Shown here in pieces: positions 3,787 to 59,828 of a stretch of 64,000 nucleotides of DNA. How positions within the stretch are numbered: the stretch's first letter is position 1; every line of letters begins with the position of its first letter. Origin of the DNA: Spongilla lacustris. Taxonomy: Eukaryota > Porifera > Demospongiae > Spongillida > Spongillidae. The stretch is from the NCBI GenBank assembly GCA_949361645.1, contig OX442429.1, forward strand, positions 6,646,290 to 6,710,289. The letters are read 5' to 3'. The notes beneath the pieces were generated by a model, which worked only from the letters and a program-made list of their open reading frames with translations, had not been told where the DNA came from and did not search any database. Made by a program: the position numbers and the translations under genes.

Positions 3787-6700
3787 GTGTGTGTGTGTGT
3801 GTGTGCAGTGTGTGTGTGTGGTGTGTGTATGTATATATTTGTATCAATTAATGTTCACCACTCTGTATTCTCAGATGGTTGAGATCAAATAGCCTCTCAG
3901 CCAAAAAGCTGATACCCGTGGACATCTGCAGCTTGGAACAACCAAACACGTCCCAGCTAACATTGACTGTCACCACGGCTACTGGAACAGTCAATGCTCA
4001 CAACTCAAGCCCCACCCACAAACAGTCTCCACCAACTCCACCCAGTCCCACCCACCACCACGCCCCCCTCATCCTGCCCAGCTCCGCCCACCAACGCACC
4101 CCTCTTAAATCACCATCCCCTTCCTCCACTGAAGACCTCAAAGGCTACAAGGGTCAGCTAGAGAGGCAGATTGAGGCATACTGGAGCAGGCTCAGCTGCT
4201 TGGCCTGGCACTCCCTCCCTCCCCAGGTGAGGGTGAAGGTGAGGAGCCTGATCCCCCGAGGGAAGCCCTCCTCATACAGGCATAACAGGGCCCTCCTGCA
4301 CAAGGCTCTCTCGGAGGCCAATTGGCCCTGCCCACAACAGAACTTCATCCTTATTGAAGAGCAGATCTCTCAGGCCCAGTCCTACCTTGAGTGGTGCATA
4401 TCTCTTTTGGAGGAGAAGGGTTCGCCATCTCTGTCGTCAAAGCGTCCCCAAGCCTCTCGTTCTGCCCAGGCTCACAGCACATCTCCACTGACTGCCACCA
4501 GAGTGCCATCTAGATATATGTCACACTTGGCAACCAGCAGAATGAAGGGTCAAGTGGTGGTAGCAAGATCAGACATTGACAGATTATACTATCCAAGTGA
4601 GCCTCATAACCCATCAAAGTCCTTGGTAGTTATTAATGAACACCTCATTGATCACCTCATTTCTCAGTAGTTATTAATGATCACCTCATTCCTCAGTAGT
4701 TATTAATGACAGCTCATTCCTCTAGTTATTAATGATGACATCATTCCACAGTAGTTATTAATGATACACCTCATTCCTCAGTAGTTATTAATGATCATCT
4801 CATTCCTGAAGTACTTCTTAGTACACCTGTCAATGGCACGTTTTACAGGCACCACATGTCTCAGTACTGTAACACACTCACATGTGTGCAAATGCACTCC
4901 CACAGGTGTGGTTTTGGATTACGTCCGAACGTGTCACGTCTCTGTGCAGTTTGCAGATGGACGTCAACAGTTGACCAACACTCGTCATGTCTTCCCTATT
5001 GGAGGAAAAGCCGCATTGTGCCACACCTTCCAGCCTGGGGACTGCGTCTTGGTTGGACTGGGGACCTCCATGGCAGGGCTGCCTATGTCCCATACCGGTA
5101 CACGGGCCCGGTATGTGCCCGGGATTGTGGAGGCTGTAGACTTGAGGAGGGAGAACTTTGTCACATGCCGCGTTAACACTTTTAGTTGTCATGGCATCGT
5201 GACCACGTCCAGGAAGCAGCTCATCAAAATTCCATACTCCTGTTACGCTGAAGCGTGCAGGTCAGGGGTGGATGGGATGGGGAAGAGGACACAGGCTAGG
5301 GGACAATATGGAATAATACGGTCCAGAAGTTGGCATGAGAACGGGTTGCAAAAGTGCTGGAAAAGTGTGCTGGACAAAGAAGTGGGCACTGTTTGGAGTT
5401 TCACACCAAGCCAGGAAGTCAAAGAAGCTTTCAAAACAAGTGAAAAGGGTCCCTTTCTGGGTACTGTTGTGCCAAAGAGCCAACATGAACAAATGGACTC
5501 GAAAGTAAAACAACAGCTCACTTCAGAAGGACAAGAGAATGAAAGGGAGCGTTCTAAGCAAGGTGCATGTGGTGTGATAAGGAGTGAGGTGGGGACTGCT
5601 ATTGAAGTGCAGGACAAGCCACAAAGGAGTGAGGTGGGGACTGCTATTGAAGTGCAGGACAAGCCACAAAGGAGTGAGGTGGGGACTGCTATTGAAGTGC
5701 AGGACAAGCCACAAAGGAGTGAGGTGGGGACTGCTATTGAAGTGCAGGACAAGCCACAAAGGAGTGAGGTGGGGACTGCTATTGAAGTGCAGGACAAGCC
5801 ACAAAGGAGTGAGGTGGGGACTGCTATTGAAGTGCAGGACAAGCCACAAAGGAGTGAGGTGGGGACTGCTATTGAAGTGCAGGACAAGCCACAAAGGAGT
5901 GAGGTGGGGACTGCTATTGAAGTGCAGGACAAGCCACAAAGGAGTGAGGTGGGGACTGCTATTGAAGTGCAGGACAAGCCACAAAGGAGTGAGGTGGGGA
6001 CTGCTATTGAAGTGCAGGGCAAGCCACAAAGGAGTGAGGTGGGGACTGCTATTGAAGTGCAGGACAAGCCACAAAGGAGTGAGGTGGGGACTGCTATTGA
6101 AGTGCAGGGCAAGCCACAAAGGAGTGAGGTGGGGACTGCTATTGAAGTGCAGGACAAGCCACAAAGGAGTGAGGTGGGGACTGCTATTGAAGTGCAGGGC
6201 AAGCCACAAAGGAGTGAGGTGGGGACTGCTATTGAAGTGCAGGACAAGCCACAAAGTGAAGCAATTAGTGGAGTGCAAGTAGAGGCAGTTGCTGGAGGGA
6301 GGGTCTTGAGACAGGAGGGGCCCCAGGAGGTGCAGGATGGGCCCCAGGAGGTGCAGGATGGGCCCCAGGGGGTGCAGGATGGGCCCCAGGGGGTGCAGGA
6401 TGGGCCCCAGGGGGTGCAGGATGGGCCCCAGGGGGTGCAGGATGGGCCCCAGGGGGTGCAGGATGGGCCCCAGGGGGTGCAGGATGGGCCCCAGGGGGTG
6501 CAGGATGGGCCCCAGGGGGTGCAGGATGGGCCCCAGGGGGTGCAGGATGGGCCCCAGGGGGTGCAGGAGGGGCCACAGAAGATTAAGACCACAGCAGGAG
6601 ACAATGCAGTAGGGGACATGATATGTGATAACCTGCCTGTGCAGCCTGGAGTGGAAGGTACATCGGTGCTCCACCCACAGCCAGTGGAGGTGTGGAGAAG

Positions 6701-9258
6701 TGTCTCTTCACTGGAGAAGCAGTTGGACAATGGCATGCAGCAGCTAGGGGGGCACTTGGATCAGCTAGGGGGGCACCTGGATCAGCTGGGGGGCCAAGTG
6801 GCCAGTCTGCTGTCACGGCAGGTCAAGGTAGATGAGATGCTCCAAAGACTGGTCTCTGAGGAACAAAGCGCCCTTGCAACCATGGGTGGTCGGTCTGTTG
6901 TGAGAAATGGTGAGTTGCATCTGTAGGATGAGTAAAACCTGCAACGTGCAAAGTTGTAATGGAGGCATTGTTGTCCTCTACCTTTTTACTTACTGCTCCC
7001 CTTCCCTGTAGCATTCCTTCCCTCGCCCGTGGGGAAGTCCCCTGAAGTGGCCAGCCAGGCAGTGATGGCTGTTGTTGATGTTTACGACCAATCAGTTAAC
7101 ACCGAGTCATCGAAGGAGGACAGAGTGGTTGGAACCGATCCAATTACCGAGTCTCGTGGAGTTGGAACAGAGTGGTACGACTCAGTCAACAGCAGTCAGG
7201 CATGCCAACACTGCAGACAGCAGGCCCTGGGCTCTCAGACATCGCACTATGCGCCACTTTTGGCAAGTAGTAATGGGAGGGGCATTGGGAGGGACAGTGG
7301 GACGGTCCAATCGTGTGGCAGCTGTGTGATGAATGCAAGTAGAAATCTAACAATGAGTGGCGGCTGTGCAACCAAGGGAGGGAAGAAGAGAAAAATCCGG
7401 ATCAAGTCATTAAGCAGTATGAGCAGTAGGAAGGCTAACCAAGTGGTGCCTGTGGACGATTGTCAGGTAGTAGTTTGTGATGTGAAGAACCTTCAGGTGA
7501 ACAATAATCAGCAAGATGGTGATCAGGTGAGAGGCAGCAGAGCAGGTGATGATCAGGTGGTAGGCAGCAGAGCAGGTGATGATCAGGTGAGAGGCAACAG
7601 AGCAGGTGATGATCAGGTGAGAGGCAGCAGATCAGGTGATGATCAGGCGGGAGGCAGCAGAGCAGGTGATGATCAGGTGAGAGGCAGCAGAGCAGGTGAT
7701 GATCAGGTACTGGTGCTAGACCATAACAAGGTGATGATCGCTAAGAGGGTGGAGGATGTTACCAAAGAATGCAACATGGTGGACAAATGCATGGTTGGAG
7801 TTGAAGCAAGTGGTGAGACAGCCATTAGTGAACACAACAGCACACATCCTGGCATGCGTGCACCTCCTGCTACAGATGGGGCTGAGGCTTGGTTGCCAAG
7901 CAGCACCCCTCTTGCCAAGGCCACTCAAACCGAACACAAAGGCACTATTGTTGGCATGGAAACAGAACCACTAGTTGTGGGGCAGGCACCCAGCGCATGC
8001 TCGTGTGTTGTGGGTCCCTCTTCCAAGTTGGACACTGCCAGAGACACCATATCAACGGACAGCCATCACACGGCTGCCCTTCTCGTTGGCCAGACTGTCT
8101 TGGCACGATGGCCGGACAGAGGCTGGTATTATTGGGCCCGCGTACTAAGGTGTGAAGAGGGTGGAGCCTGGTACCTGCTGGAGGCCGAGGGGGACAATGA
8201 AACAATCCACTCTTCAGACATTGTTATCCGTAATAGCCCTGTACCCTCTTCCTTCAAGGTAAATTGGTAGGATGTGCCCTGCCTTTGCAACTAGTGCCCA
8301 GTCCCTCCTTCCAGGTAGGAGATACGGTGTTAGCCTGCCATCCAAGCTATGAAGGCTGCCATGTTCCAGGCAAGTATAGTTATTGCCCATCTACCTATCC
8401 ATTAACCCCTTCTACCTGTCCTTTCCTTCCTACCCCTTCTCTGTCCCTTCTACCCGTCACAACAGGCCACATCACAGAGGTCAACAAGCATCAGGTCATA
8501 GTCTGTCTCTATGACGATGCTCTGGTTCAGTGCTCAGCGCAGGATGTCTACCCCCTCTCCCCCCAAAAGCATCAGGAGGACCTGAGGTGCATAGTGGAGA
8601 GGGAACACTCACTGGTGGGCAAGGCGGTGATCGCCCGAAGGGACTCCGACGGCCTCTTCTATCCCGGGAAGGTGTTGAAGCACCTGGCATTCCCGCAGGT
8701 GTATCTGATTGGTTGGAAGAGTGGCAGCACGCAAGAGCAGGTGAAATGAGCCCAATGTGTTGCAAAATGAAATGTAAACTGAGACGTGCACACACTCCAT
8801 CCCCCTGATGTCGTTGACCACAACAGAGCGGGTGTCATTTGTTTGGACCAATGACAAAGCGCCACTCACTGAAAGAAGGAGACAGCGTGTTGGCCCTTGC
8901 CAGCACATGTGAGTACATTCTCTTTAATTGGTACTTAGGCTGGATTATCTGTAATTTCTCCTCCGTTTCCATAACAACAATACAGCATATGGCATGTGCA
9001 TGCCTGGTCAGGTTGTGGGGACACACAAAGGGAAACTGGAGGTGGAGTTTTGTGATGGACAAATGTAAGCCACAACACAGACACACAGACACATGCTGCT
9101 GGATTGCCATGATAACAATCACCTCTTGTGTAAACAGTCAGCTGGTACCGCCCACATACTGCTTCAGGATCACCAAGAAGTACTATGAAGCTGCAGTGGA
9201 GTACATAGCATTGAAGGTACAGGACGAACTGCAGCAACACACAGCCGAGGGTCACTAA
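85..9258 (+). CDS. VWA3A/B-like protein: VWA domain plus Tudor-like (DUF4537) modules, 20 exons, 5' end outside window
   Basis: Exons that keep frame across GT/AG sites: 85-250, 309-377, 474-574, 733-919, 1092-1195, 1263-1359, 1428-1486, 1624-1719, 2218-2356, 2737-3101, 3170-3224, 3470-3636, 3875-4596, 4906-6909, 7012-8258, 8315-8369, 8466-8740, 8827-8908, 8986-9064, 9138-9258 (stop). Exon 9 carries the MIDAS motif ILDTSSSM and exon 10 the rest of a VWA fold (ALYLLTDGRPD, VNTISFN, TGGR). An earlier VWA-like end lies in exons 2-4 (LHIVVCGN, SASGGR). Later exons hold repeated Tudor-like modules typical of VWA3B/DUF4537: VVVARSDIDRLYYP, LVGQTVLARWPDRGWYY, VGDTVLACHPSYEGC, KAVIARRDSDGLFYPG, LKEGDSVLALAS. 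Introns are mostly 50-350 nt. The 1092-1195/1263 junction uses a weak donor and is the least certain. VWA3 proteins are poorly characterised; metal-dependent adhesion-type binding and peptide binding are inferred from domains only. N-terminal exons lie before position 1. Confidence 0.82.
2384..2736 (+). repeat. Intronic polypyrimidine repeat ending at a 3' splice site
   Basis: This C/T-rich tandem array, built on CCTCCCCAATTCCTC-like units including a duplicated block of about 110 bp, fills most of the 380-nt intron between VWA3 exons 9 and 10 and runs into the acceptor at 2736. Confidence 0.85.
3233..3440 (+). repeat. Intronic minisatellite, about 21-bp unit
   Basis: About nine copies of a unit containing GGCAAGGGATGGTGTGAGG fill the intron between VWA3 exons 11 and 12. 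Confidence 0.9.
3721..3832 (+). repeat. (TG)n microsatellite
   Basis: An alternating TG tract of more than 100 bp, interrupted twice by GCAG, lies in the VWA3 intron 3637-3874. Confidence 0.97.
5581..6256 (+). repeat. Coding minisatellite, 15 copies of a 45-bp unit, in the VWA3-like gene
   Basis: Fifteen head-to-tail 45-bp units each encode RSEVGTAIEVQDKPQ. The only coding variation is D to G in alternating copies near the 3' end (units 10, 12 and 14). The near-identity at DNA level means recent expansion or homogenisation. Because 45 is a multiple of 3, long ORFs also appear in other frames and on the minus strand; these are shadows. Confidence 0.97.
6312..6572 (+). repeat. Coding minisatellite, about 12 copies of a 21-bp unit
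   Basis: Directly after the 45-bp array, the same exon carries about twelve 21-bp units encoding VQDGPQG (first copies VQDGPQE). The unit is GC-rich with a GGGCCCCAGGGGG core. It stays in frame and leads into a predicted coiled-coil/heptad stretch (LDNGMQQLGGHLDQLGGH...). Confidence 0.95.
7520..7710 (+). repeat. Coding tandem repeat, 30-bp unit (RAGDDQVRGS), about 6 copies
   Basis: Exon 15 of the VWA3-like gene contains a third in-frame array of a 30-bp unit encoding RAGDDQVRGS with small substitutions. It lies in a low-complexity linker before the Tudor-like module at about 8080-8215. Confidence 0.9.
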
Positions 9259-16969: not shown

Positions 16970-19711
16970 ATGGCGAGTGACGAACAGGACCAAGCGAGTG
17001 CGGAGCGTGTGAGGGAGCTGGAAGACATGATACACAGGCTGAAGCAAGAAAACATGAAGCTATTAGGCACGGTGAAGGACGGCTCTCAAAAAATTGCGCG
17101 CCAACAATTAGATTCGCCAGAGGACCCCGAAGCAGACCTAATTCCGTTGAATGACTCGAAGGACGACCCGGACGAGTGGTAAACGTGGTCTTATGGGATT
17201 ATGTGTATGTATTAACACACCGTGCTTACCCCCTCGCTCCATACTATCTCTCCCTCCTCACTTTCTCTTTTCACTCTAAACTTTATTTCTCTTCTCTTGC
17301 TCTCTTTCTTTTCCTCTTCTCGCCCTCTCTCACTCTCTCCCTCTTCCCCTCTCCCTCTTCCCCTCTCCCTCTTCCCCTCTCCCTTTTTCCCTCTCCCTCT
17401 TCCCCTCTCCCTCTTTCCCTCTCCCTCTTCCCCTCTCCCTCTTCCCCTCTCCCTTTCCCCTCTCCCTCTCCCCCTCTCCCTCTTCCCCTCTCCCTCTTCC
17501 CTCTCTCCCTCTTCCCCTCTCTCCCTCTTCCCCTCTCTCCCTCTTCCCCTCTCTCCCTCCCTCTTCCCCTCTCTCCCTCTTCCCCTCTCTCCCTCTTCCC
17601 CTCTCCCTCTTCCCCTCTCTCCCTCTTCCCCTCTCTCCCTCTTCCCCTCTCTCCCTCTTCCCCTCTCCCTCCCTCTTCCCCTCTCTCCCTCTTCCCCTCT
17701 CTCCCTCCCTCTTTTGTTTTTTCTTCACAAACAGGCTTTACGTGTCACCACTCCACCCACCAACTCCCGCAAATAAGACTCTCACTCCACGCCAGTGGCT
17801 CTTAGAGGGGAGTGACCCGATGAAGGATGACCAGGACATCCCATCACTGGATGAAGTGCGCAAAGCTATATCATTCCAGTCTGCAGAAATTCCCGAGGTA
17901 CTAACCAGCAGTCAGCCATCTGCACACGAGGACATGTCAGCCAGCACTAAGGCACCAGGAGATGGGGCAGGGAAATGCGTGCCTCGAGTAGCCAGACCTG
18001 TTAGAGCTAAGCTGCCACCAGATGAAGAATCTATCCCTGTGGTGAGGGCAAGACTGCCACCAGAGGATGTTGTGTCGCTGACTGAAGAGGTTGTACCTGT
18101 AGTCAGAGCCAAGCTGCCAGCAGGGGAAGAGGATGCTCTTACTGTAGCTGTTGAGGCAGATGTGTCACTGAGGCAAATACAGGCTAAGCTACCACCTGAT
18201 GAAGATGCCATCCCTGTGGTTAGGGCTAGACTGCCACCAGAGGATGTTGAAGAACAACTTTCCATATCACCATCAGAAGAGGTTATACCAGTGGTCAGAG
18301 CAAAGCTTCCACCAGGGGAAGAACCTGTTGTTGATGTGCAACAGGTTCCCAGGCCTGCTAGAGCCAAGCAACCCAGGGGAGTAGCCAGGCCTGTCCGAGC
18401 CAAAGCACCACCTGATGAAGATGCCATCCCTGTGGTTAGGGCTAGACTGCCACCAGAGGATGTTGAAGAACAGGTTTCCATATCTCCAACAGAAGAGGTT
18501 ATACCAGTGGTCAGAGCGAAGCTGCCGGGTGTACAACAGGTACCCAGGCCTATCAGAGCCAAGTTGCCACCTGATGAAGATGCCATCTCTGTGGTTAGGG
18601 CAAAAATGTCACCAGAGGGTGTTGAATCTGAACAACTTTCCATATCACCATCAGAAGAGGTTATACCAGTGGTCAGAGCAAAGCTTCCACCAGGGGAAGA
18701 ACCTGTTGTTGATGTGCAACAGGTGCCCAGGCCTGCCAAAGCCAAGCAACCAGGGGGAGTAGCCAGGCCTGTCCGAGCCAAAGCACCACCTGATGAAGAT
18801 GCCATCCCTGTGGTTAGGGCTAGACTGCCACCAGAAGAAGAGGTTTCCATATCACCATCAGAAGAGGTTATACCAGTGGTCAGGACAAAGCAGCCAGGTG
18901 TGCAACAGGTACCCAGGCCTATCAGAGCCAAGCCACCACCTGATGAGAACAGCTCTTCCCCACAAGGTAAGGTTGTTAGGTCAAAGTTGGCTCCGCCCTC
19001 AAGCAGTCAAGAAGATACGGTCCCCAGGCCCAAGCCCAGCAGTGCACAGCTGGTGGCTGGCACCTCCGGCCTCCCAAAGAACGCACGGAATATTTCTTCT
19101 CAGAACAGCTCTCCAACCCCCCGGGGGTCTAAAGCCCCCACCACACAAGCCACCAAGAGGGTCTCCCCCCTCTCTTCCCAGCAGTCCTCACCATCCCCTC
19201 CGCCCCTCCAACAAGTCAATCATTCCTCCTCCTCCCCTCCCCCCACAGACAGAGGAGAAGCAGAGAAGGTAGGACCAAGAGGGAAGGTCACCCGCCTGCC
19301 CGGGTCCCCATCCTCCTTATCCGGCCGCACCCCTTCTGCAAGGTCCCTCCCCGCTCCCTCTGGTCAGAGGCCATTGGTCGCCAAGGGGGAGGGCTCTACT
19401 AGTTCCTCCTCCCCAGCCCCCTCTTCCCCTTCCCAGTCTGGTGTTTCAAGGCGGGTGTTACAGGGAGCTGAGGGCGTAGCTGAATCCCCTTCGAATCTCA
19501 AGGTACCTTCGAGACCATCTTCACGGTCAAAGATGGTGGCATCACCTAGCAACCAGCAGAAGCGGCTTGTTTCGACACCCACATCAAGGTATGCAGATGG
19601 AAGCTATTTCAAGTGGTGTGTTTTGAACCTCTCTCCCTTCCATTTAGATCGACACAGGCAGAGCAGCCACCACCCAACGGAGTCGATGATTGGTCCGAAG
19701 GTTGCTACTAA
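16970..19711 (+). CDS. SLAIN motif-containing protein (SLAIN1/2-like)
   Basis: Exons: 16970-17178, 17735-19588, 19648-19711 (stop). The N-terminus is a heptad coiled coil (VRELEDMIHRLKQENMKLLG), then DPDEW joins in phase to LYVSPLHP, matching the SLAIN-family W-LYVSP signature, followed by TPRQWLLEGSDPMKDD. SLAIN proteins bind microtubule plus-end factors (EB and XMAP215 families) and promote microtubule growth. The large exon carries an unusual run of PVVRAKLPPGEE / PRPIRAKLPPDE repeats (about 17970-18960), then Ser/Pro-rich basic sequence with SRPSSRSK-type motifs expected to bind EB proteins. The last exon, read from AG at 19647, gives a short tail ending DDWSEGCY. It starts 147 bp after the RBM41 stop. 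A partial copy lies at 23690-24595 and a smaller one near 27930-28205. Confidence 0.8.
17325..17715 (+). repeat. Intronic polypyrimidine array (CCCTCTTCCCCTCTCT-like)
   Basis: Almost pure C/T for about 390 bp on the coding strand, built of 12- and 16-bp units, filling the SLAIN intron up to its acceptor at 17734. This is a very long polypyrimidine tract with triplex potential. Confidence 0.95.
17970..18960 (+). repeat. Coding degenerate repeats in SLAIN exon 2
   Basis: Alternating motifs (A)IPVVRARLPPEDV, EEVIPVVRAKLPPGEE and QQVPRPIRAKLPPDE recur about 15 times with higher-order duplication of roughly 190-340 bp blocks. It is in frame throughout and gives a basic, proline-rich disordered region. 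Confidence 0.85.
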
Positions 19712-20128
19712 CTGTTAATGAATTTGCACATGGACTACAGATATTTGTTGTCATTGTTCACACACCTATGTGTATGCATCATATTGTGTCATGATCATCT
19801 GATGTAGAGTGACTCTATTTAAAGCCTGAAATGCACAGGCCATTTTCTACCAAATGTTACACTTGAAATACTACAAAAGTGTTGGTATTCCCATAGATAC
19901 TACATCATAAAGCTCTGCAGGCAACTTAACACACTTGTATTTTGGCCCACAAGTCCTCAAAAGATTAAATGTGATCAGTTACCCAAGCCCGTTCATCCAG
20001 CTCACTAACCTTGTATACTAAACATTACACTGCACTGAAAGATACCAACAAAAAATATAATATATAAAAAGAACACTCTGTATAAATTTAAACATGATAA
20101 GTGGCGATTATTCCACCATCTGGTAGTG
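19712..20128 (+). other. SLAIN 3' region, no gene seen
   Basis: AT-rich sequence between the SLAIN stop and the protease ORF. It is duplicated with about 90% similarity by eye at 24596-24920, which marks the duplication as genomic rather than a processed copy. Confidence 0.6.
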
Positions 20129-28205: not shown

Positions 28206-28514
28206 TGATTCTACTTTTAAACGCTGGACGGCATTGATATATCAACCTCTATAACTTTATAGATTGAAACAAAACTGGGCTTACATTTTGGAGGCCAGTT
28301 TGAAAATTCAACCCAGGGAAGGGTATTATCACTTCTGTAAAATCCTGTGCAAATGTGCCATATAAGTAACATGGATTTGAAATGCAACAAAGTCAGTAAA
28401 TATAAATTTTTCCACATGTGGTAACAACCCATAACCAAAATTACAATCAGATTTGAGCTTTTCATGTGTCCAATTTATACTGTACAATGAGGGAGTGTGT
28501 TGGCTGCTCACCTG

Positions 28515-28795
28515 CTACTGCAGGGGTCATATGTCACACTGCGAGGGTCATATGTCACACTGTGGGGGTCATATGTCACAATGCGGGGGTCATATGTCAC
28601 ACTGCGAGGGTCATATGTCACATTGCAGGGGTCATATGTCACACTGCGAGGGTCATATGTCACATTGCAAGGGTCATATGTCACACTGTGAGGGTCATAT
28701 GTCACACTGTGGGGGTCATATGTCACAATGCGAGGGGCTTATGTCACACTGCAGGGGTCATATGTCATACTGTGGGGGTCATATATCACACTATG
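28515..28795. repeat. 21-bp tandem repeat, about 13 copies
   Basis: The unit contains GGTCATATGTCACACTG. Two to three copies of the same unit sit at equivalent positions in the other two duplicate blocks (about 21066-21105 and 25706-25775), so expansion happened after duplication. ORFs here are artefacts. Confidence 0.95.
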
Positions 28796-29145
28796 GGGGC
28801 CATCTTTTACTGTTTTTAAAAAGAAGTGTTATATGACTTCAAAAATTATATGCACTTGTAGAATGGTAACATGATTGTGTTCTTTCAATACAAAGTAGTG
28901 ATTATTTGTCATACATGTGTTTTGGTGTTGCATCAGAACAGGACCAAATGGGTAGGAAGGAATGGTGTGCGCACTAAATGTGGCGGCATGATCAATACAT
29001 AGCCTTATTTGGTAGTATTCTGGTGTATATAAAATGCTGGCAGTTTGCTCAATTAGAAAGTGCATAACAATGCCGAAATTCACATTTGAGTAGAATTGCT
29101 CATAATAAATATATTCCAATACTAATACAATTGCATTCTATGAGC

Positions 29146-32100
29146 CTACATTAAACTAAAAGAATGCCTGTATAATAATTTAACTCTCACTAATTCCTTT
29201 ATGTTTTCTTCAAAACTAAACATAAGTGCTCCTTTACCGTCATCACGGGTCGCAAAGAGTACACCAACAATGCTGTTATCCACAGTATCTGGTTTGACCA
29301 CAACAGAACCAGAATCACCTTCTCCTGCAATCTCATTGTTCTCTTCATGTACAAGTCTCCAACAGTTTCTATTCTCTCTGCCATCAACAGTGCATGACGC
29401 AACATCCTCCTTTATGACCATTTCTGAGTATCCTGTACATGCTCCTTGTTTGATAACAGCATCACCTATTTCTGGTGTTTGAAATTTCTTTAAAGTTACT
29501 TTGTGACAATTTACCAGATCAGTAATGTCATTAACAATGCCGTAGTGCTGCATTAGAGGTTGTACCTGTAGAAGACAAATGTCTGCTGTGTCACTTTTAA
29601 TGCCAGCCATGTAATGAACTTTAAATTTGTTGTCGCTGTCACATTTAACAATCATTTGAAAATTATGTTCATCTCTACAGTGCTCACATGTACTGACAAA
29701 AAGGTCGCGCCCTGATGTCTTTTTCAAAAAACATCCCAGTGATCCATAATCATGAACATTTGTTGTATACATTTTACTGCCTGGTGCACAAGCAAGCATG
29801 AACTTTTGCACTCCTTGCGCAACAATTATTGGAGTATGAATACATGCAATCTTAGCTGCTCTGTGTATCCTTTTTTCAAATTCATCAAAATCACTAACTT
29901 CAACGTTGATCACGTATTGTGGATAGTAAAGCTGATTTTCTTCATTTATTCGCACAGCTATAGTAATGTCCTTTTCAATGCCTTGTGTGATCAGCTCTTT
30001 ACAAAGAGATTCAGAATCAGTCTTGGCATTGCTGTGGTCCTCATCACTGAGTAGAAATGCAGCTTCAGCAAGTGACATATATCCTAATTATGAGAATAAG
30101 CTTTAAATCAGCAATATAATGAGTGCAGAAAATCTTAAGTTGTTACACCTATATATAACAAGGCACATAAAATAAAGATTGTGACATTAGGTTACTGCAC
30201 TACAAAATTCTAAGTACAGTACTGCCCAGTAGCCAAATTAAAGAATTATTCACACGCATAGTATATAGAGGATATGCAATACTAATTGTATTTACTTAAC
30301 TTATGTATAATGTCACAAGTCCTATTAATTCATATTAGGTGTGGTGACACCCCGCATTCTTTCCTCTAATATTTGCTCTTGCCCGCTTATGGTTCCCAGC
30401 ATATGAAGGAAAAATAAATTGGGGATGTATGGACACTAGAGAGGACAAAAATACTAGAGTTAGTCAATGCAATCATCCTCAATTTTGAGACTGTTGAGAT
30501 ATAAAAAAAAAAACAATGTTCAGTTTCATTAGGAAATGTCCCACAAAAGATATCTTGTGATTTTCAGTTTTATATTTCAAATGCACTTTATACTAATGTA
30601 AACTGATGATTAGTTAGAACAATGATCGATCAACTACGTAGACTTTTCTGTTCATAAAGATGGACCTACAGGATAGCCCACATACAAAGTTAGCGGTTAA
30701 CTACATCAATTGATACAAAACGATCAAACACTGTTTTTCCACCTATTTTCCAAGCTTGTTAGAATCACCGACTACTCTGGGACCTTTTTAAATGTTCACT
30801 CAGTTCGATTTCAACTACATGATGTAGCTCCGAAACCTAGTTTTTCTACAAAATCTCACCTTTTAGTTTATGTGCATCATCAGTAATGACATAAAACTGT
30901 AAACAATAAGCATGACATCAATTGCATATATCCTCTATTGTAGGTGTTTTCATTTCCTGTGCTATCTAACTCACAGGAAATGAATAAGGCCAACAACATA
31001 CCATGTACATAAACAATTAAATTAATTATTTTAACTTGGCTCTGGATGGTACTGTATGTGAAAGATGGAGGAGCAGCAAGGCTTGTTGGATTGCATAACA
31101 ATGTGTAACTTTCATCATACATATACGTTCATTAATAGAACATGTGCTTCGAGTTTTAATAAGGATAGCGCAAAGTAACACTAGAATGATGCTGGCACTT
31201 TGAAAATATAAATACCCATAAGTAAAGACTGAGCTACAAATAATTGTAACTTGGGTAACCAAACTCACTAAACATATAATCCATAAAATGTGTAAACAAG
31301 ACAGCACCCATGAGTAACTTGCGTGTGAATAAAGGAGCTGAAAAATCTATGTGCTACAACTAGTATTTTTCAAGGCAGTGCTGTATACATGTAGATACAT
31401 GGATCCTGATTTCAGACTTTATCAGACTCAAGCAAACATGTGTTTACTTACGTAAAATCAATGCAGCATTCTTTTGAATTTCATCAGCTGCAATATTAAG
31501 ATCATATTTCCTCAGTACACTTATCAATGAATTCCAGCTATTATCTTCAGCTGTCTTAGCCCACTTCATCACCCTAGTTATACAAGTGAGCACATCTGAA
31601 TAGTTGTCATCATCAGGTGCCCGGTGTGTATACATGGCCTTGGAACAGTGTTCAACGACAACTTTCTGAACATCCTCATTTAGCATCGATAATAGGTAGT
31701 ATAGAGATGATAGTGTTGGACTATCTGTCTCTAGGGGTAAAGAAGACAGTATTTTTATGTGTTATGAGATAGATTGTCTTTGCTCAAAAATACACATGTA
31801 TTATTGTACGTGCAGGTGCGCACATGCAGTGCCTACAAGAAATTCGATTCACGATGTACATATGTATGTACATTGATGTGATTCGTATTGCCATTTGACT
31901 AAATAAAATACATCACCTGATTAAATAATGTTGGTGTTGCAGTATAGCATTTCCCAGTATACGTAATACTTACTTATATTTATACTTGTAAAATATTGGT
32001 TTTTCCGAGCAATGGGTACCGGAACATCTGAAACAAAATTTGATGCAGCAGTTTAAAACAGATGCACCCATTAACAAACATAGTGAAGCTAGTGAGTTTG

Positions 32101-33664
32101 CGTTTTTTCTCCGTGCATTACAAAACATACATAATGTTATTTGTTGATGGAAAGCAAATAGGCCATGTCATTATTAAAAAATTCTGTTTTCACAATGCAT
32201 TTCATACTACTAATCGTATTACTAAGTTATGCAGCCTAGAAATACTTTGTTAAAGAAGTTTGAATCCAATTATCTGACTGAATTACATAACATGCACATG
32301 CACTTGACATCCAGTAAGTGCCATTACCTTGAAGTGTTGAAAGAAACACTTTGCAGTAGTCCACAGCTACCTTTGCAGCTGTGACAGTCCATGTGTTGTT
32401 GGTGGAGATTCCACTTATGGCAAACGTAATAATTCCAAATACACTTTCCATTGCTTGAATCTCAGCTACAAAAGGGTCTGGTTCACGTGCATGAATTACT
32501 GATTTCCGTAAATTCATGCCACACACACAGTCCCAATCACCATGTACATATTTAGACTTGGTGGAAGGCACAACAATATCTCCATTCATTCCTCCAGCTG
32601 TTGTGCCGGACACAGACAGTGCAACTACTGTTGTCGCTTGTGGAAAATAATGCTTTAGTGCCTTAGTAACAGAGCGGCATGATGTTCCTACAAAAAACAG
32701 TGATGTTTTCTTTCCTGCAAATATTCCAAGAAATATGTCTTTTGTTGGAAAGGACACATGATTTGTAAATTCATCCAGTGGAGGCTTGAGATCTTCAAGG
32801 ACAGCAGCTTTTGAAAAGGCATCACGTGCTAACAGTATAACTTCAACAGTACTCATAAATAGCTGCAGCTTTGGGTGGTCCTTTTTCTCTAGCACCTGGC
32901 GAGGTACAGGTCCACCCCAGTGTTGAAATTTAGGTCCTAAATAAAATCCCAAAATGAGAATAACTTGCACTAGTGAGAATACAAAATATAGCCAAACATA
33001 ATACATGTACGTGACATTAAGCTTGTGATTCAATGACAATTGTAGACATCAATTGAGTAAAAAGTAAGGAAACAAGGAATTACGGAAATTATTCATTACA
33101 ATAGTAGTAGTAGGTGCCAAGACCAATGCATCCAGCTGCAGATGAATTTCATTATCGCTACGGGTCGTGGTAATGTATTCATCCACAGCTGCGGCATTGA
33201 GTCTGGGCACGAGACTATGTTAGTCATATGTGAAGTGTCATGAATACGATTAGCAAAACACAAGATTGATTCCACTATTGCCGTTGCATCAGTTGGACTT
33301 TAGCGAGCAATGTAGTAAAACTGCTGATGCTTAGAAAGCTCAGACAACAGAGATAACGCTCACTCATTCCCACACTAGAACCTTACATGTAAAAGTTTTT
33401 CCTTTTCCCGGATCTGATAAGATAAGATTTGCTCAGGTAAGAGGTTTATTGCACTGTACAGTTGAAGCGTAATGTTTGCGGTTATGCGGAAGCACTAGAA
33501 CCAACAAGTTAGAAACTTACTGCCGAGTTGGATTTGTTTTTATTATTTTCGTAAGGGGAGTTATGCTTGACACAATTTCGATCTTTAGCAAAAACAATTG
33601 CGAGAACAACCAGAACAAAGTCGATCCCGAAAGTAAGAAGGATCCATAGTCTATCGATAAGCAT
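29146..33664 (-). CDS. Nucleoside-phosphorylase-like / death-like / trypsin-like protease fusion protein
   Basis: Minus-strand exons: 32936-32328, 32031 to about 31990, about 31729 to 31461, 30088-29146 (stop). All three joins keep frame. The first encodes a purine-nucleoside-phosphorylase-superfamily-like domain (LFFVGTSCRSV, VVALSVSGTTAGG, GDIVVPSTKSKY, then AAKVAVDYCKVFL). The third is a helical death-like segment (NYSDVLTCITRVMKWAK ... SWNSLISVLRKYDLNIAADEI). The last is a chymotrypsin-fold protease with His in VSTCEHC, Asp in ADICLLQV and Ser in GEGDSGSVVV, all three triad residues present. No NTPase or signal-receptor domain is visible. A possible first exon at 33664-33521 encodes a hydrophobic anchor (LWILLTFGIDFVLVVLAIVF) but its phase does not match, so an exon may be missing. 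An innate-immune or cell-death role is inferred from the domain types. Confidence 0.7.
30095..31455. other. Long intron, nothing recognised
   Basis: AT-rich intron of about 1.37 kb between the death-like and protease exons. No repeat family or conserved ORF was recognised. Confidence 0.6.
33521..33664 (-). CDS. Candidate first exon: short signal-anchor peptide
   Basis: ATG at 33664 gives 48 codons with one strong transmembrane segment (ILLTFGIDFVLVVLAIVFAK), ending at GTAAGTTTC. Its phase 0 end does not fit the phase-1-requiring acceptor at 32936, so membership in the protease gene needs an extra exon. Similar but frame-broken sequence lies upstream of two of the death exons (37620-37760, 40980-41160). 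Confidence 0.35.
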
Positions 33665-36629: not shown

Positions 36630-36929
36630 CTTCCATCACCAGCCTGGTCACTTCCTCCACAGCGACCTTGTTCTCCAACTTCTTCAGTGCCTCCACCAGG
36701 TGCCTATATGTGGCCTTTGACCCTTCCTGCTGTAGCCATGTTGACAGCATCCTCATCCTCCCCCACCTGTTCTGTTCATCGTGTTCCTCACGATCAATGT
36801 CAGAGACATGCTGTGCCCCAATAAGATGACTGCCAACAGACCTCCAATCAAACGAAAGCTGTGCTATTTCTAAAATGAGATCTCTGCTGCATTGTGCATC
36901 CATAGCTGTTGTCCCTGTGGCCTGGGGAT
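36630..36929 (-). CDS. Death-domain exon C (300 bp, phase 1-1)
   Basis: Flanked by a CTCCAG acceptor and GTAAGAGG donor. It encodes a six-helix death-domain pattern (DLILEIAQLSFDWRSVGSHL, RMRMLSTWLQQEG, YRHLVEALKKLENKVAVEEV). It differs from copies A and B by only a few residues (W for S at NRWGRM). The exon is an exact multiple of three in phase 1-1, so it can be spliced or skipped without a frameshift. No complete host gene could be assembled. An upstream TATA-containing segment lies at 37620-37800. Confidence 0.75.
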
Positions 36930-39923: not shown

Positions 39924-40223
39924 CTTCTATCACCAGCCTGGTCACTTCCTTCACAGCGACCTTGTTCTCCAATTTCTCCAGTGCCTCCACCAGGTGCCTA
40001 TATGTGGCCTTTGACCCTTCCTGCTGTAGCCATGTTGACAGCATCCTCATCCTCCCCGACCTGTTCTGTTCATTGTGTTCCTCACGATCAATGTCAGAGA
40101 CATGCTGTGCCCCAATAAGATGGCTGCCAACAGACCTCCAATCAAACGAAAGCTGTGCTATTTCTAAAATGAGATCTGTGCTGCATTGTGCATCCATAGC
40201 TGTTGTCCCTGTGGCCTGGGGAT
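39924..40223 (-). CDS. Death-domain exon B (300 bp, phase 1-1)
   Basis: Near-identical to exons A and C at DNA and protein level, including the flanking intron ends (TTATTTTATCTCCAG acceptor). It has T for R in SRDLI, N for D in EEHNE and K for E in AVKEV. Preceded on the minus strand by the duplicated TATA segment at 40640-41170. Confidence 0.75.
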
Positions 40224-41496: not shown

Positions 41497-42273
41497 CTTC
41501 CATCACCAGCCTGGTCACTTCCTCCACAGCGACCTTGTTCTCCAACTTCTTCAGTGCCTCCACCAGGTGCCTATATGTGGCCTTTGACCCTTCCTGCTGT
41601 AGCCATGTTGACAGCATCCTCATCCTCCCCGACCTGTTCTTTTCATCGTGTTCCTCACGATCAATGTCAGAGACATGCTGTGCCCCAATAAGATGGCTGC
41701 CAACAGACCTCCAATCAAACGAAAGCTGTGCTATTTCTAAAATGAGATCTCTGCTGCATTGTGCATCCATAGCTGTTGTCCCTGTGGCCTGGGGATCTGG
41801 AGATAAAATAAGCAGTGGACAGTGACCACAGACAGACACATAGACAAATGCACAAAAAATACACACACATGTACATTTACATGTATAACCCTTAAACAAG
41901 TATATGGTACGTAATTAGTACTAGCACCATTAACCATTCATTCTATTTCAAACACCTCACTTACCTAGCTGCACATGTATGTCCACATAGTTGGAGTCAA
42001 TCCTTTTCTCACCACAGGAGACCACACAATAGTACTTCCCCTCATCCTCACAGGTTACCTGAGGTATCCTCAGATCTCCAATGGTGTCTGGAGGGAGTGG
42101 CTTTCCATCATTATACCACTGATAGGTAACTATCTGGCCAGGTGGTCCTTTAGCCCTACATGATAACACAGCTTCTGAGCCCCATTGGACATTCAATGGT
42201 TTGGGCTGAGTAGTGATGGTTAGTGGTTCAGTTGATAGTGGTGGAGGTACCATCACCTGAAGAGGACTAGTTT
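41497..42273 (-). CDS. Ig-like domain exon spliced to death-domain exon A
   Basis: Two exons on minus: 42273-41965 (309 bp) and 41796-41497 (300 bp). The junction VQL-D-PQATG keeps frame. The first encodes an Ig fold (NVQWGSEAVLSCRAKG, YQWYNDGKPLP, CEDEGKYYCVVS), with both disulphide cysteines, the core Trp and the D-x-G-x-Y-x-C motif. The second is the death domain. Both exons are symmetric phase 1-1. Ig plus death is reminiscent of the paracaspase MALT1 and of sponge receptor/adaptor proteins, but no caspase or kinase domain is visible. 5' and 3' partners are unknown. It may continue through death exons B and C, since phases allow it. Confidence 0.75.
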
Positions 42274-50141: not shown

Positions 50142-50384
50142 CTACGAAGCTAACAATGTGGAGTAACCCGCCAACTGCTCGGACGGGATCCGAACATACA
50201 TCTGGTACACCACACTCTCCCATCTACCAAGTGTCTTGATGAATAGTACTGCGTCGCCCAGGCCCTTCTTGGCCGCCGTTGTTGCCGCTCCTATCCTTAA
50301 GCTGTGGCTGCAGTGCTTACTCTGATCGATACCCGCCCTTGACAGGCCCTTCCTCAGTGACTCTACAAGGCACCGCCTCGTCAA
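50142..50384 (-). pseudogene. Tyrosine recombinase C-terminal catalytic fragment
   Basis: An 80-residue open segment with HSLRIGAATTAAKKG, LGRW and the nucleophile region YQMYVRIP. The upstream catalytic Arg/Lys part lies beyond stops and frameshifts. Part of the DIRS/Ngaro-type remnant. Confidence 0.75.
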
Positions 50385-51910
50385 ATATCGCGCCCGCCCT
50401 GGTAGCGAAACAACGGGCCCTCGCTAACCCTCTTTAGTCGAAGGTATAGTCGAGACGCGCTGCCACTTGGACAGAGACTCGTACCCGTTCTCCCTACCAA
50501 ACGGGTCGGTCTTCGACTGCATTATATGCAATTGAACAGATGTTGGACTACTGGCGACGTCCTCGTACCGCCACGTCACTCACGTACGCTAAGGTGCACC
50601 CCTGGATAGTAACCAGCCTCTGACGGCACTGTCATCTCCCGCCTAGCTCTCAGAAAGGTGAAAAACCCAATGCGACACGCCGCCCACAACATTTTGGTAT
50701 CGACCTCACATCCCCGCCTATACTGTCCTCAACGCTGCAAGCAACTCTGGTGTAATAAATAGGAAGACGCTGTCTCTCTTCCCCGCCTTGTTCCGCCTCA
50801 GCCCTCTCCACCCCTTTCGGTACCTTCTAGAAGGGTTGGCAGCCCCGCCTTTAACTAATCACTGATAGGTAACTTGCGATGCTTCCACCCTATCGACACC
50901 AAATGCGATACGAACCTACACAAGTCCCGCTCCGAGGATGGTCGCGGAGTCCGGTTCGCTAGGCGACAGAACTCGTAAAAAAAAATAAAAAAATAAAAAA
51001 ACGCCGCACACCGATATACACTACGTTTGCTGAACTGGCTATATCTAGCTTTGTCAATGTAGACGTCAGCGCAGCGGTTCCGCTCATTGAGGTCCAATCT
51101 GCAGCTGGATCCAGCTGCAGTAACACCTGTAACCGGCGATCGGCGCTGGGGCCTGACGTGCTGTGAGAACCTGTCGGATAGGCGAAAGGCTGCCTGCCAC
51201 GTTACTCACTCCCGCAATGTGCTCGGCCCTCTTAGGACAAACACCTCATCAAGTACCTAACCAGTTAATTCATCCTTGCTCAGTAGTGCCGGATAGTACT
51301 ATGGCTACCACCGCCGCATTGTCGCACTGACACCGCACCACCTTACCTCGATCGCCACGAACTGCCCCAACTGGTAAGCGCCACCACTATTGGGAATAAT
51401 TCCTTCGCTGTGATAGGCACCCTGGACCAACTCGCCGGCCATTGGCACGTGACACATTCTCCCCTCGAGGCAAAAACGCCACATGCCACCCCACGCACCC
51501 GACGCGTCAGACCGACCCAGACGTCACCTCAAACACTGTTCAATATTGAAATGCCCTTCCACTCCTCGAGGAACGTCGCCCACCAGACCAAGTCGGCCCT
51601 GAACAATTTATTGATGGCGGTGCAGTTCGCCCGCAACTGACACCGGATTTATCATCGTGCGCAAGAATGTACGCCCTGACCGGATCACCCGACAAGCATG
51701 CTGTAACTGGCCAACTGGCGATTGGAGCTCCCTCTTTGCGCACGCTATCCGAGCCTGCCACCCCGTAAATAGCCTCCTTCAACCGCTCCAACTTCGTCTG
51801 AGGTAGGATGTCTACCTCGATACCTAAGACCGTAAGACGTCGACGGCTGGCACACCTTCTTCCTCGCAATCGGCCCCCCAATTACTCACGCAATGCCAAC
51901 GACAATGAGA

Positions 51911-57378: not shown

Positions 57379-59828
57379 TTCTTAAAACACAGTCGGACAA
57401 AATGTTCTGCTTGTTCTGAGCAGTCAGAGGGAAGGTTCGGACGTGCATCCTCATTCAAATTCCCTATCGCGAACATGGCTGCCATGGGCTCATACTCATG
57501 CCAGGGAGGGTGGCCTGTGAGCATCTCAACAACTGTGGCACCTAAACTCCTGCATACAGCACAGAGGTGATAGGATGGAGAAGTGAAGGCACATGTAGTT
57601 TTACAAAGTTTAATAATGAAACCACTCAATCAAGACACATATAGCTTGATTGATCACTGATTTGACGTAAGTTACATAACTAAGCAATACAAGACACATG
57701 TGACATCATGGAGAGGTGAAGGTGCATTTACACAGTTGTACGCCGTTGGGGGGGGGGGGGGGGGGGGGGGGGATGGGTTCAAACGACCCTCCTCTCCAAA
57801 ACGAGGTCACCCTCCCACATTTTGTTGATTAAAAGTCCATACATGTATATGGTTAATTTTGCCCTCACAAATGTTATTGTAAGGTCACCTATTAATAAAA
57901 TTCAACCCCCCACCCCCCCACCCTTCCCGAAGGCTGTGTACACCATCAAGATATATGTACATGTAGCTTTTTTGATTTACCATTAAAGTTTTTTTGTCAG
58001 CACATCTACTTTTGCTGGTAGGATTTATATTTGTGGTCAATCTCTACACCACTTTCCTTAATTGTGAAACACACTGCACAAGTACAATACCTTCCAGCTG
58101 CAGCTTGAAAACAACTCACACAGACCCATACATCACTCACATGCTGCGTATTAATGACACATCGAACATGAGCAGGTATCAGCGAGTATCATAGGAGTGA
58201 AAATACGGCATTAGGACGTATATGTAATGTGCATTTCAAAGAATTTTATAGTACAGTTAAAAAATAGATTAAATGTGCTACTCACATACACAATCTTACC
58301 ATATATCAGCCTTCACTGTGTAGGACTTTGAGTCATATTGTGCCCTGATCACCTCAGGAGCCATCCAGTATGATGTACCCTTCTCAGACTTCAAGCCACT
58401 GCAATTGGTCTAAGGTAAGAGGAGTGACAATGGTAAGGAGAGGGGAGGGCAATGGTAAGGAGAGGGGAGGAGCAATGGTAAGGAGAGGGGAGGGCAATGG
58501 TAAGGAGAGGGGAGGAGCGATGGTAAGGAGAGGGGAGGAGCAATGGTAAGGAGAGGGGAGGAGCAATGGTAAGGAGAGGGGAGGAGCAATGGTAAGGAGA
58601 GGGGAGGAGCAATGGTAAGGAGAGGGGAGGGCAATGGTAAGGAGAGGGGAGGAGCGATGGTAAGGAGAGGGGAGGAGCAATGGTAAGGAGAGGGGAGGAG
58701 CAATGGTAAGGAGAGGGGAGGAGCAATGGTAAGGAGAGGGGAGGAGCAATGGTAAGGAGAGGGGAGGAGCAATGGTAAGAAGAGGGGAGGAGCAATGGTA
58801 AGGAGAGGGGAGGAGCAATGGTAAGGAGAGGGGAGGAGCAATGGTAAGGAGAGGGGAGGAGCAATGGTAAGGAGAGGGGAGGAGCAATGGTAAGGAGAGG
58901 GGAGGAGCAATGGTAAGGAGAGGGGAGGAGCAATGGTAAGGAGAGGGGAGGAGCAATGGTAAGGAGAGGGGAGGAGCAATGGTAAGGAGAGGGGAGGAGC
59001 AATGGTAAGGAGAGGGGAGGAGCAATGGTAAGGAGAGGGGAGGAGCAATGGTAAGGAGAGGGGAGGAGCAATGGGAGGAGCAATGGTAAGGAGAGGGGAG
59101 GAGCAATGGTAAGGAGAGGGGAGGAGCAATGGTAAGGAGAGGGGAGGAGCAATGGTAAGGAGTGTATGCCAACACTCTCCCACTCATGACATCCTGGTAT
59201 CAGTTGTAGACATGTACATGTACATGTAAATGAGTACATACACAAGCATCTACATGTATATACCTATGACTGTACCTGAATCCTCTTTGCAGTCCCAAAG
59301 TCTGCCAACTTGATGTTGTCATTGGAGTCTATAAGAATGTTCGCACCCCTAATGTCCCTATGCATAATCTTGTTGTCATGGAGATAGACCACTCCTTCCA
59401 AGATCTGCTTGGTGTATTTGCATGTGATGGTCTCTGTTAGAGCCCCTGTGTGCAAGCGTTTGGAAACTGAACCCTGTACAAAATAATGTAATGTGATGGT
59501 GGTGGTGTATGTGAACATGGGTGTGGTGGAGATGGAGATATAAATAGAAGGTTATTAAAATATTAACTGGTTATCAAACTACATGTACCTAAATGCAAGT
59601 TACACAGAGACATACCCCTGGCATGAGTACCCTAATTAATAGGGACATTAGCCTTTTGCTTATATACGGAGGGGAAAAGTAGGGCCTGGTGCCCATTGGC
59701 AAGGTCCTAGAGTGCAGTGTGGGATGAGGAAAAGCTAGCACTGAGAACGAGAAAGTATACAATTACCAAGTTTGCCAAGTTTGCTGGTACATGTGCACTA
59801 GGACCTTGCCAATGGACATCAGGCCCTA

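Follow-up and report, generated by a model that had tools for sequence, protein, structure and literature searches.

The window analysed here is a 64,000 nt stretch of the Spongilla lacustris genome (assembly GCA_949361645.1, contig OX442429.1, positions 6,646,290 to 6,710,289), corresponding to C16:6646290-6710289 in the 248.6 Mb, 51-contig genome that was searched for paralogues. Its minus strand carries a row of exons (Table 1) that may form a single gene combining a domain of the phosphorylase superfamily (PNP-like), a Death-like domain and a trypsin-like serine protease. Upstream of these are three Death exons (D1, D2 and D3) and an Ig exon that sits 168 bases before D3. A preliminary description of this DNA, made from the sequence alone, had proposed a four-exon gene with two enzymatic effectors joined by an adaptor; the motifs that it quoted are present in minus-strand frames, while the in-frame 54 nt candidate exon, the in-phase Ig exon and the three Death exons were absent from it.

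Table 1. Coordinates of the predicted exons and proposed catalytic codons in the window, and of a second PNP-Death locus elsewhere in the genome
Feature	Position	Strand	Details
Ig exon, possibly part of the same gene	41965..42273	-	309 nt, phase 1-1; Pfam Ig_3 E 2.9e-13
Death exon D3	41497..41796	-	300 nt, phase 1-1; 297/300 identical to D1; Pfam Death E 4.4e-9, 36.8 bits
Death exon D2	39924..40223	-	300 nt, phase 1-1; 292/300 identical to D1; Pfam Death E 2.2e-9, 37.7 bits
Death exon D1	36630..36929	-	300 nt, phase 1-1; Pfam Death E 5e-8, 33.4 bits
PNP-like (phosphorylase superfamily) exon, degenerate active site	32328..32936	-	609 nt, phase 1-1; profile A2 match, no Pfam match
Candidate linker exon	31974..32027	-	54 nt, phase 1-1; splice sites and frame, without homology support
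Death-like exon	31452..31730	-	279 nt, phase 1-1; splice sites, phase; Pfam Death_3 E 0.0012, below cut-off
Terminal exon, N-terminal segment and predicted trypsin-like serine protease	29146..30083	-	938 nt including the stop codon at its end, starts in phase 1
Proposed catalytic His codon (CEHC; His133 of P0001)	29680..29682	-	kept in 4/4 aligned sequences including the window's and in 5/5 C10 paralogues
Proposed catalytic Asp codon (ADIC; Asp166 of P0001)	29581..29583	-	kept in 4/4 aligned sequences including the window's and in 5/5 C10 paralogues
Proposed nucleophile Ser codon (GDSGS; Ser256 of P0001)	29311..29313	-	kept in 4/4 aligned sequences including the window's and in 4/5 C10 paralogues
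FN3 exon, contig C1	L023:5444-5725	same strand in all three C1 exons	phase matches
PNP exon, contig C1	L023:9113-9976		phase matches
Death exon, contig C1	L024:1889-2184		phase matches

Splice sites close to the consensus flank the PNP-like, Death-like and protease exons, which can be joined in frame in phase 1. The donors read gtaatg after the PNP-like exon and gtaagt after both the 54 nt exon and the Death-like exon, and the acceptors end in tttatttag (PNP-like exon), tacccctag (Death-like exon) and cataattag (protease exon). The joined frame stays open whether the 54 nt exon is included or skipped. Spacing is 597 bases between the PNP-like and Death-like exons and 1368 bases between the Death-like and protease exons, and the introns from the PNP-like to the protease exon contain no AATAAA, which we count in favour of a single gene. 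All four exon combinations that were tried had open frames, including the full chain from the Ig exon through D3, D2, D1, the PNP-like, 54 nt and Death-like exons to the protease (1028 codons, no internal stops). As this single gene is proposed from splice logic alone, the fusion is a candidate and is unproven.

The start of the gene is not where it had been placed. The first exon of the preliminary description (33664-33521, minus strand; 144 nt, with an ATG at 33664 and a gtaagt donor after 33521) ends in phase 0, while the acceptor of the PNP-like exon needs phase 1, and the joined frame contains many stops; this exon was therefore ruled out. Of the three in-phase joins claimed, those linking the PNP-like, Death-like and protease exons stand and the first does not. 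The best in-phase upstream partner for the PNP-like exon is D1, which is the best-scoring and only strong exon ending in phase 1 within 37100-32937. Because all internal exons are of phase 1-1, frame alone cannot place the start, and the upstream Death and Ig exons may be part of the true gene. Since the start had been misplaced and these exons may belong to the gene, the exact domain order for which no described protein had been known is not established.

The assignment of the PNP-like exon to the phosphorylase superfamily, proposed earlier from motifs, was borne out by profile comparison. Against a profile of PNP relatives (A2, built from 37 sequences after P0025 and P0035 were set aside from the 39 relatives that L012 retrieved), the exon scored 46.4 bits, compared with 6.6 bits for the best of 1000 shuffles. 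L012 is a clear PNP exon on contig C1 (Pfam 40.7 bits), and BLASTP matched the PNP-like exon to it with an E-value of 1e-5. A Pfam scan of the exon gave no match, and it was not one of the 9 matches among those listed in a genome search with PF01048. On the strength of the profile and BLASTP similarities, the exon is a true phosphorylase-superfamily homologue.

Alignment with its relatives shows that the PNP-like exon has kept the N-terminal half of the domain and a short C-terminal stretch around W-x-x-x-A-A, and that approximately 70 central residues found in the relatives are missing. The GGEMEG motif, present in 39/39 relatives, is absent. The IKGVxD motif of the relatives (KGVxD is found by pattern in 35/39) reads ISGIST. 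Lys253, Asp257 and Asp260 are invariant in the 37/37 aligned relatives, and the exon has Ser in place of an invariant Lys and Thr in place of an invariant Asp. In the PNP superfamily, the Asp of this motif is the catalytic acid and a Glu of GGEMEG binds ribose. Because GGEMEG is lost and the invariant Lys and Asp are substituted, the domain is probably a catalytically dead pseudoenzyme, and phosphorylase or nucleosidase activity is unlikely; the earlier count of two enzymatic effectors is not supported. The frame has nevertheless remained open over 203 codons at ~24-33% identity to the relatives (in the aligned part), which suggests that the domain is retained for another role. A copy-number search of the genome with the PNP-like and Death-like exons returned one match for each, namely itself. 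As the same search missed L012, divergent copies can escape it.

D1, D2 and D3 all score above the Pfam Death cut-off of 22.6 bits. These three exons (window 41796-36630, minus strand) share 292-297 of 300 bases and have similar flanking bases, which indicates recent duplication. Their two closest paralogues outside the window, both on contig C6, each have an adjoining second Death exon. Genome-wide, at least 150 matches to the Death domain were counted, from 405 candidates of which 150 were scored; this abundance and the presence of Ig and FN3 exons fit an animal genome. For the exon at 31730-31452, a Death-like identity is moderately supported, in agreement with the death-like segment described earlier: its best Pfam match is Death_3, and comparison with a third exon of Death type on C6 gave 9.8 bits (7.2 for the highest of 1000 shuffles). 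The latter similarity is weak and confined to the last part, and the C6 exon itself has no Pfam match.

A PNP exon followed by a Death exon was also found on contig C1, behind an FN3 exon (Table 1). The FN3 exon is of phase 1-1, the PNP exon ends in phase 1 and the Death exon starts in phase 1, with the Death match falling just under the cut-off (E-value: 1.3e-4; 22.4 bits against 22.6). The placement of PNP beside Death is thus recurrent in this genome. The C1 PNP exon has both GGEMEG and KGVCD and is possibly a relative of the gene in the window.

The protease exon has three relatives (P0002-P0004; 304-311 aa) that are 58-62% identical to it, with E-values of 1.2e-98 or better. P0003 passes the Peptidase_S64 cut-off, and P0004 matches Trypsin_2 below cut-off (E-value: 3.4e-4). 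The catalytic triad had been described as intact, and this was confirmed by its conservation in all of the aligned sequences (Table 1). Five weaker relatives were identified in the genome, all on contig C10 (L039-L043). The L039 exon begins after an acceptor in phase 1, as expected for a C-terminal module; L041 lacks the GDSG part, and in the paralogue at L042:1168-2901 an inserted long Ser/Thr/Gly repeat separates the Asp motif from the Ser motif. Judged by its relatives and by the order of its His, Asp and Ser motifs, the exon appears to encode a genuine trypsin-like protease that is probably active. A search of the protein database with a full-length 649 aa model returned no match, and was uninformative because its length window (0.55-1.75x) excluded exon-length proteins such as P0001-P0004. 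Scans of genome contigs and viral contigs found no relatives.

Based on these results, we favour a multi-exon animal gene built of phase 1-1 modules, in which one to three Death domains, perhaps behind an Ig domain, precede a PNP-like pseudoenzyme, a Death-like domain and a trypsin-like serine protease. We put the probability of this arrangement at roughly one half, as several observations weigh against it. First, phase 1 boundaries recur at the modules examined here, and agreement of phase therefore carries little weight. Second, one ATTAAA (at 31160) lies in the intron from the Death-like to the protease exon, and the interval from D1 to the PNP-like exon contains four copies each of AATAAA and ATTAAA. 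Third, the Death-like and protease assignments fall short in Pfam. The Death-like exon is under the cut-offs for both Death_3 (E-value: 0.0012; 19.4 bits against 27) and Death (E-value: 0.052; 14.1 bits against 22.6), the protease exon reaches no protease cut-off (Nal1_C, E-value: 0.039, is its only match) and its relative P0002 matches no protease family. Fourth, hhalign comparison of the protease profile (A3) with four Trypsin_2 members of the genome gave a probability of only 1.2%, with the GDSG stretch aligned (control against PNP: 0.6%). Fifth, single-sequence structure models made without an alignment were uninformative, with mean predicted local distance difference test (pLDDT) values of 39 for the PNP-like exon and 40 for the protease. 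Finally, searches with our own profiles found no PNP or Death exon within ~10 kb upstream of the five C10 paralogues, except for one weak Death match, and the protease family therefore exists apart from this combination.

Four other explanations were considered; the probabilities that we attach to them overlap and do not sum to one. A doubtful, though the strongest, alternative is that the gene comprises only the PNP-like, Death-like and protease exons and begins either with a first exon somewhere in 36.6-32.9 kb or at an ATG at 33006 in the PNP-like frame, and that Ig-Death is a separate upstream gene. The in-frame ATG and the four AATAAA that separate D1 from the PNP-like exon are consistent with this. 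However, when 36.6-32.9 kb was searched for first exons ending in a phase-1 donor, three weak candidates were all that emerged, at the relaxed score of 6/9, and a start at 33006 would, as judged by eye, put the T-rich end of what looks like a normal intron into the coding sequence. It is unlikely that the fusion is only apparent, produced by the phase 1-1 structure of exons from two or three neighbouring genes. The weakness of phase agreement as evidence, the C10 paralogues (no PNP and one weak Death match in ~10 kb upstream) and the ATTAAA in the Death-like to protease intron would fit such neighbours, but the spacing is short (597 and 1368 bases), the PNP-like to protease introns are free of AATAAA, PNP followed by Death is seen again on C1, and the protease exon requires an upstream phase-1 donor, which the Death-like exon supplies. 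More improbable is a membrane receptor with an Ig ectodomain and a transmembrane segment followed by intracellular Death, PNP-like and protease domains. The Ig exon does adjoin D3, and an FN3 exon lies upstream of PNP on C1, but between Ig and Death, where no dedicated predictor was run, neither a signal peptide nor a transmembrane exon was seen. Least credible of all is a PNP-like domain that acts as a nucleosidase on an unusual substrate: its 203 codons, intact at ~24-33% identity, are probably under selection, but it lacks the GGEMEG of 39/39 relatives, has Thr and Ser for an invariant (37/37) Asp and Lys, and has lost ~70 central residues.

For the favoured gene, from Death through PNP-like and Death-like to protease, we infer a single transcript, oligomerisation, proteolysis and a role in immunity or cell death. 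The Death domains would bind those of upstream sensors or of further copies of the protein, and the PNP-like domain would aid clustering by oligomerising or by binding a ligand. Clustering would gather the protease domains, which might be switched on or brought to their substrates in this way. This logic can be likened to that of Death-fold adaptors acting on initiator caspases. We tentatively propose that the protein could be a caspase-independent, trypsin-like initiator protease that is activated by Death-domain clustering and has kept a dead PNP for sensing or oligomerising, in which case it would be an animal counterpart of bacterial Death-like-trypsin effectors.

Other features of the window include a protein kinase exon (59264-59551, minus strand; Pfam Pkinase E-value: 5.9e-21) and, identified by eye, a short-unit tandem array (28510-28800) downstream of the stop codon of the protease, a frame resembling a mobile-element tyrosine recombinase (50142-50423, minus strand) and two plus-strand stretches (4785-6926 and 17280-19718) whose long open frames encode many protein repeats that are nearly identical.

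Death-fold adaptors recruit caspases, and animals are known for pairing Death domains with caspases. The adaptor-driven clustering of a protease proposed here resembles this recruitment, although the predicted protease of the window differs in fold and is a serine rather than a cysteine protease. With NAL1 and DegP-like proteases of the trypsin family, the likeness lies in the protease itself: a NARROW LEAF 1 (NAL1) structure ranked first in a search with the protease profile and was aligned through GDSGS, with a non-significant E-value (0.11), and an unrelated neprilysin chain ranked third in the same search (E-value: 0.12). To our knowledge, NAL1 has no Death or PNP domain.

Closer parallels come from systems in which Death-superfamily adaptors are joined to effectors. 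As described in the portion available of Kaur et al. 2021 (PMC8195603), Amphimedon has proteins with Death and TRADD-N domains and variable C-terminal effectors that include PNPase and caspase. Like these, the predicted gene is from an animal, is modular and fast-evolving, and combines Death-superfamily adaptors with a PNP-family domain. It differs in that its PNP-like domain is degenerate and internal and its terminal effector is trypsin-like, a type that the same portion reports for bacteria only (PMC8195603). No TRADD-N match was obtained in Pfam scans of the window frames, for which the presence of a fitting TRADD-N model in Pfam was not checked. PNP_UDP_1 effector domains are also carried by fungal NLRs, according to the part available of PMC9815663; these share the PNP family with the window but are NACHT-type NTPase receptors. 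Pfam scans of 9 frames of the window, which did not cover all of its exons, gave no NACHT or NB-ARC NTPase, in keeping with the earlier view of an NTPase-free protein. The available part of the main text of PMC12909245 makes no mention of PNP, phosphorylase, trypsin or peptidase, and no animal protein uniting PNP, Death and trypsin was found in the literature searched, of which coverage was partial.

In bacteria, Death-like domains (bDLD1 and bDLD3) are fused to PNPase or to a trypsin-like peptidase (PMC8195603, portion available). The gene proposed here likewise pairs a Death-like adaptor with effector domains of these kinds. However, PNPase and trypsin are named there as alternative partners, while the window, if it holds one gene, would have both in one animal protein. 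A Gemmata protein from the same source (PMC8195603) has an N-terminal PNPase, a TRADD-N adaptor and a C-terminal caspase, and so shares with the predicted gene the order of PNP family, adaptor and protease in one protein; unlike the window gene, it is bacterial, its adaptor is TRADD-N and its protease is a caspase. If the favoured gene is real, its degenerate PNP-like domain would be an instance of an effector enzyme that has become a structural or sensing component, and its protease would be a directly testable non-caspase component of an early animal cell-death or immune pathway. By joining an intact trypsin-like protease to Death domains, one animal gene would then link the bacterial pairing, with trypsin, to the animal pairing, with caspases.

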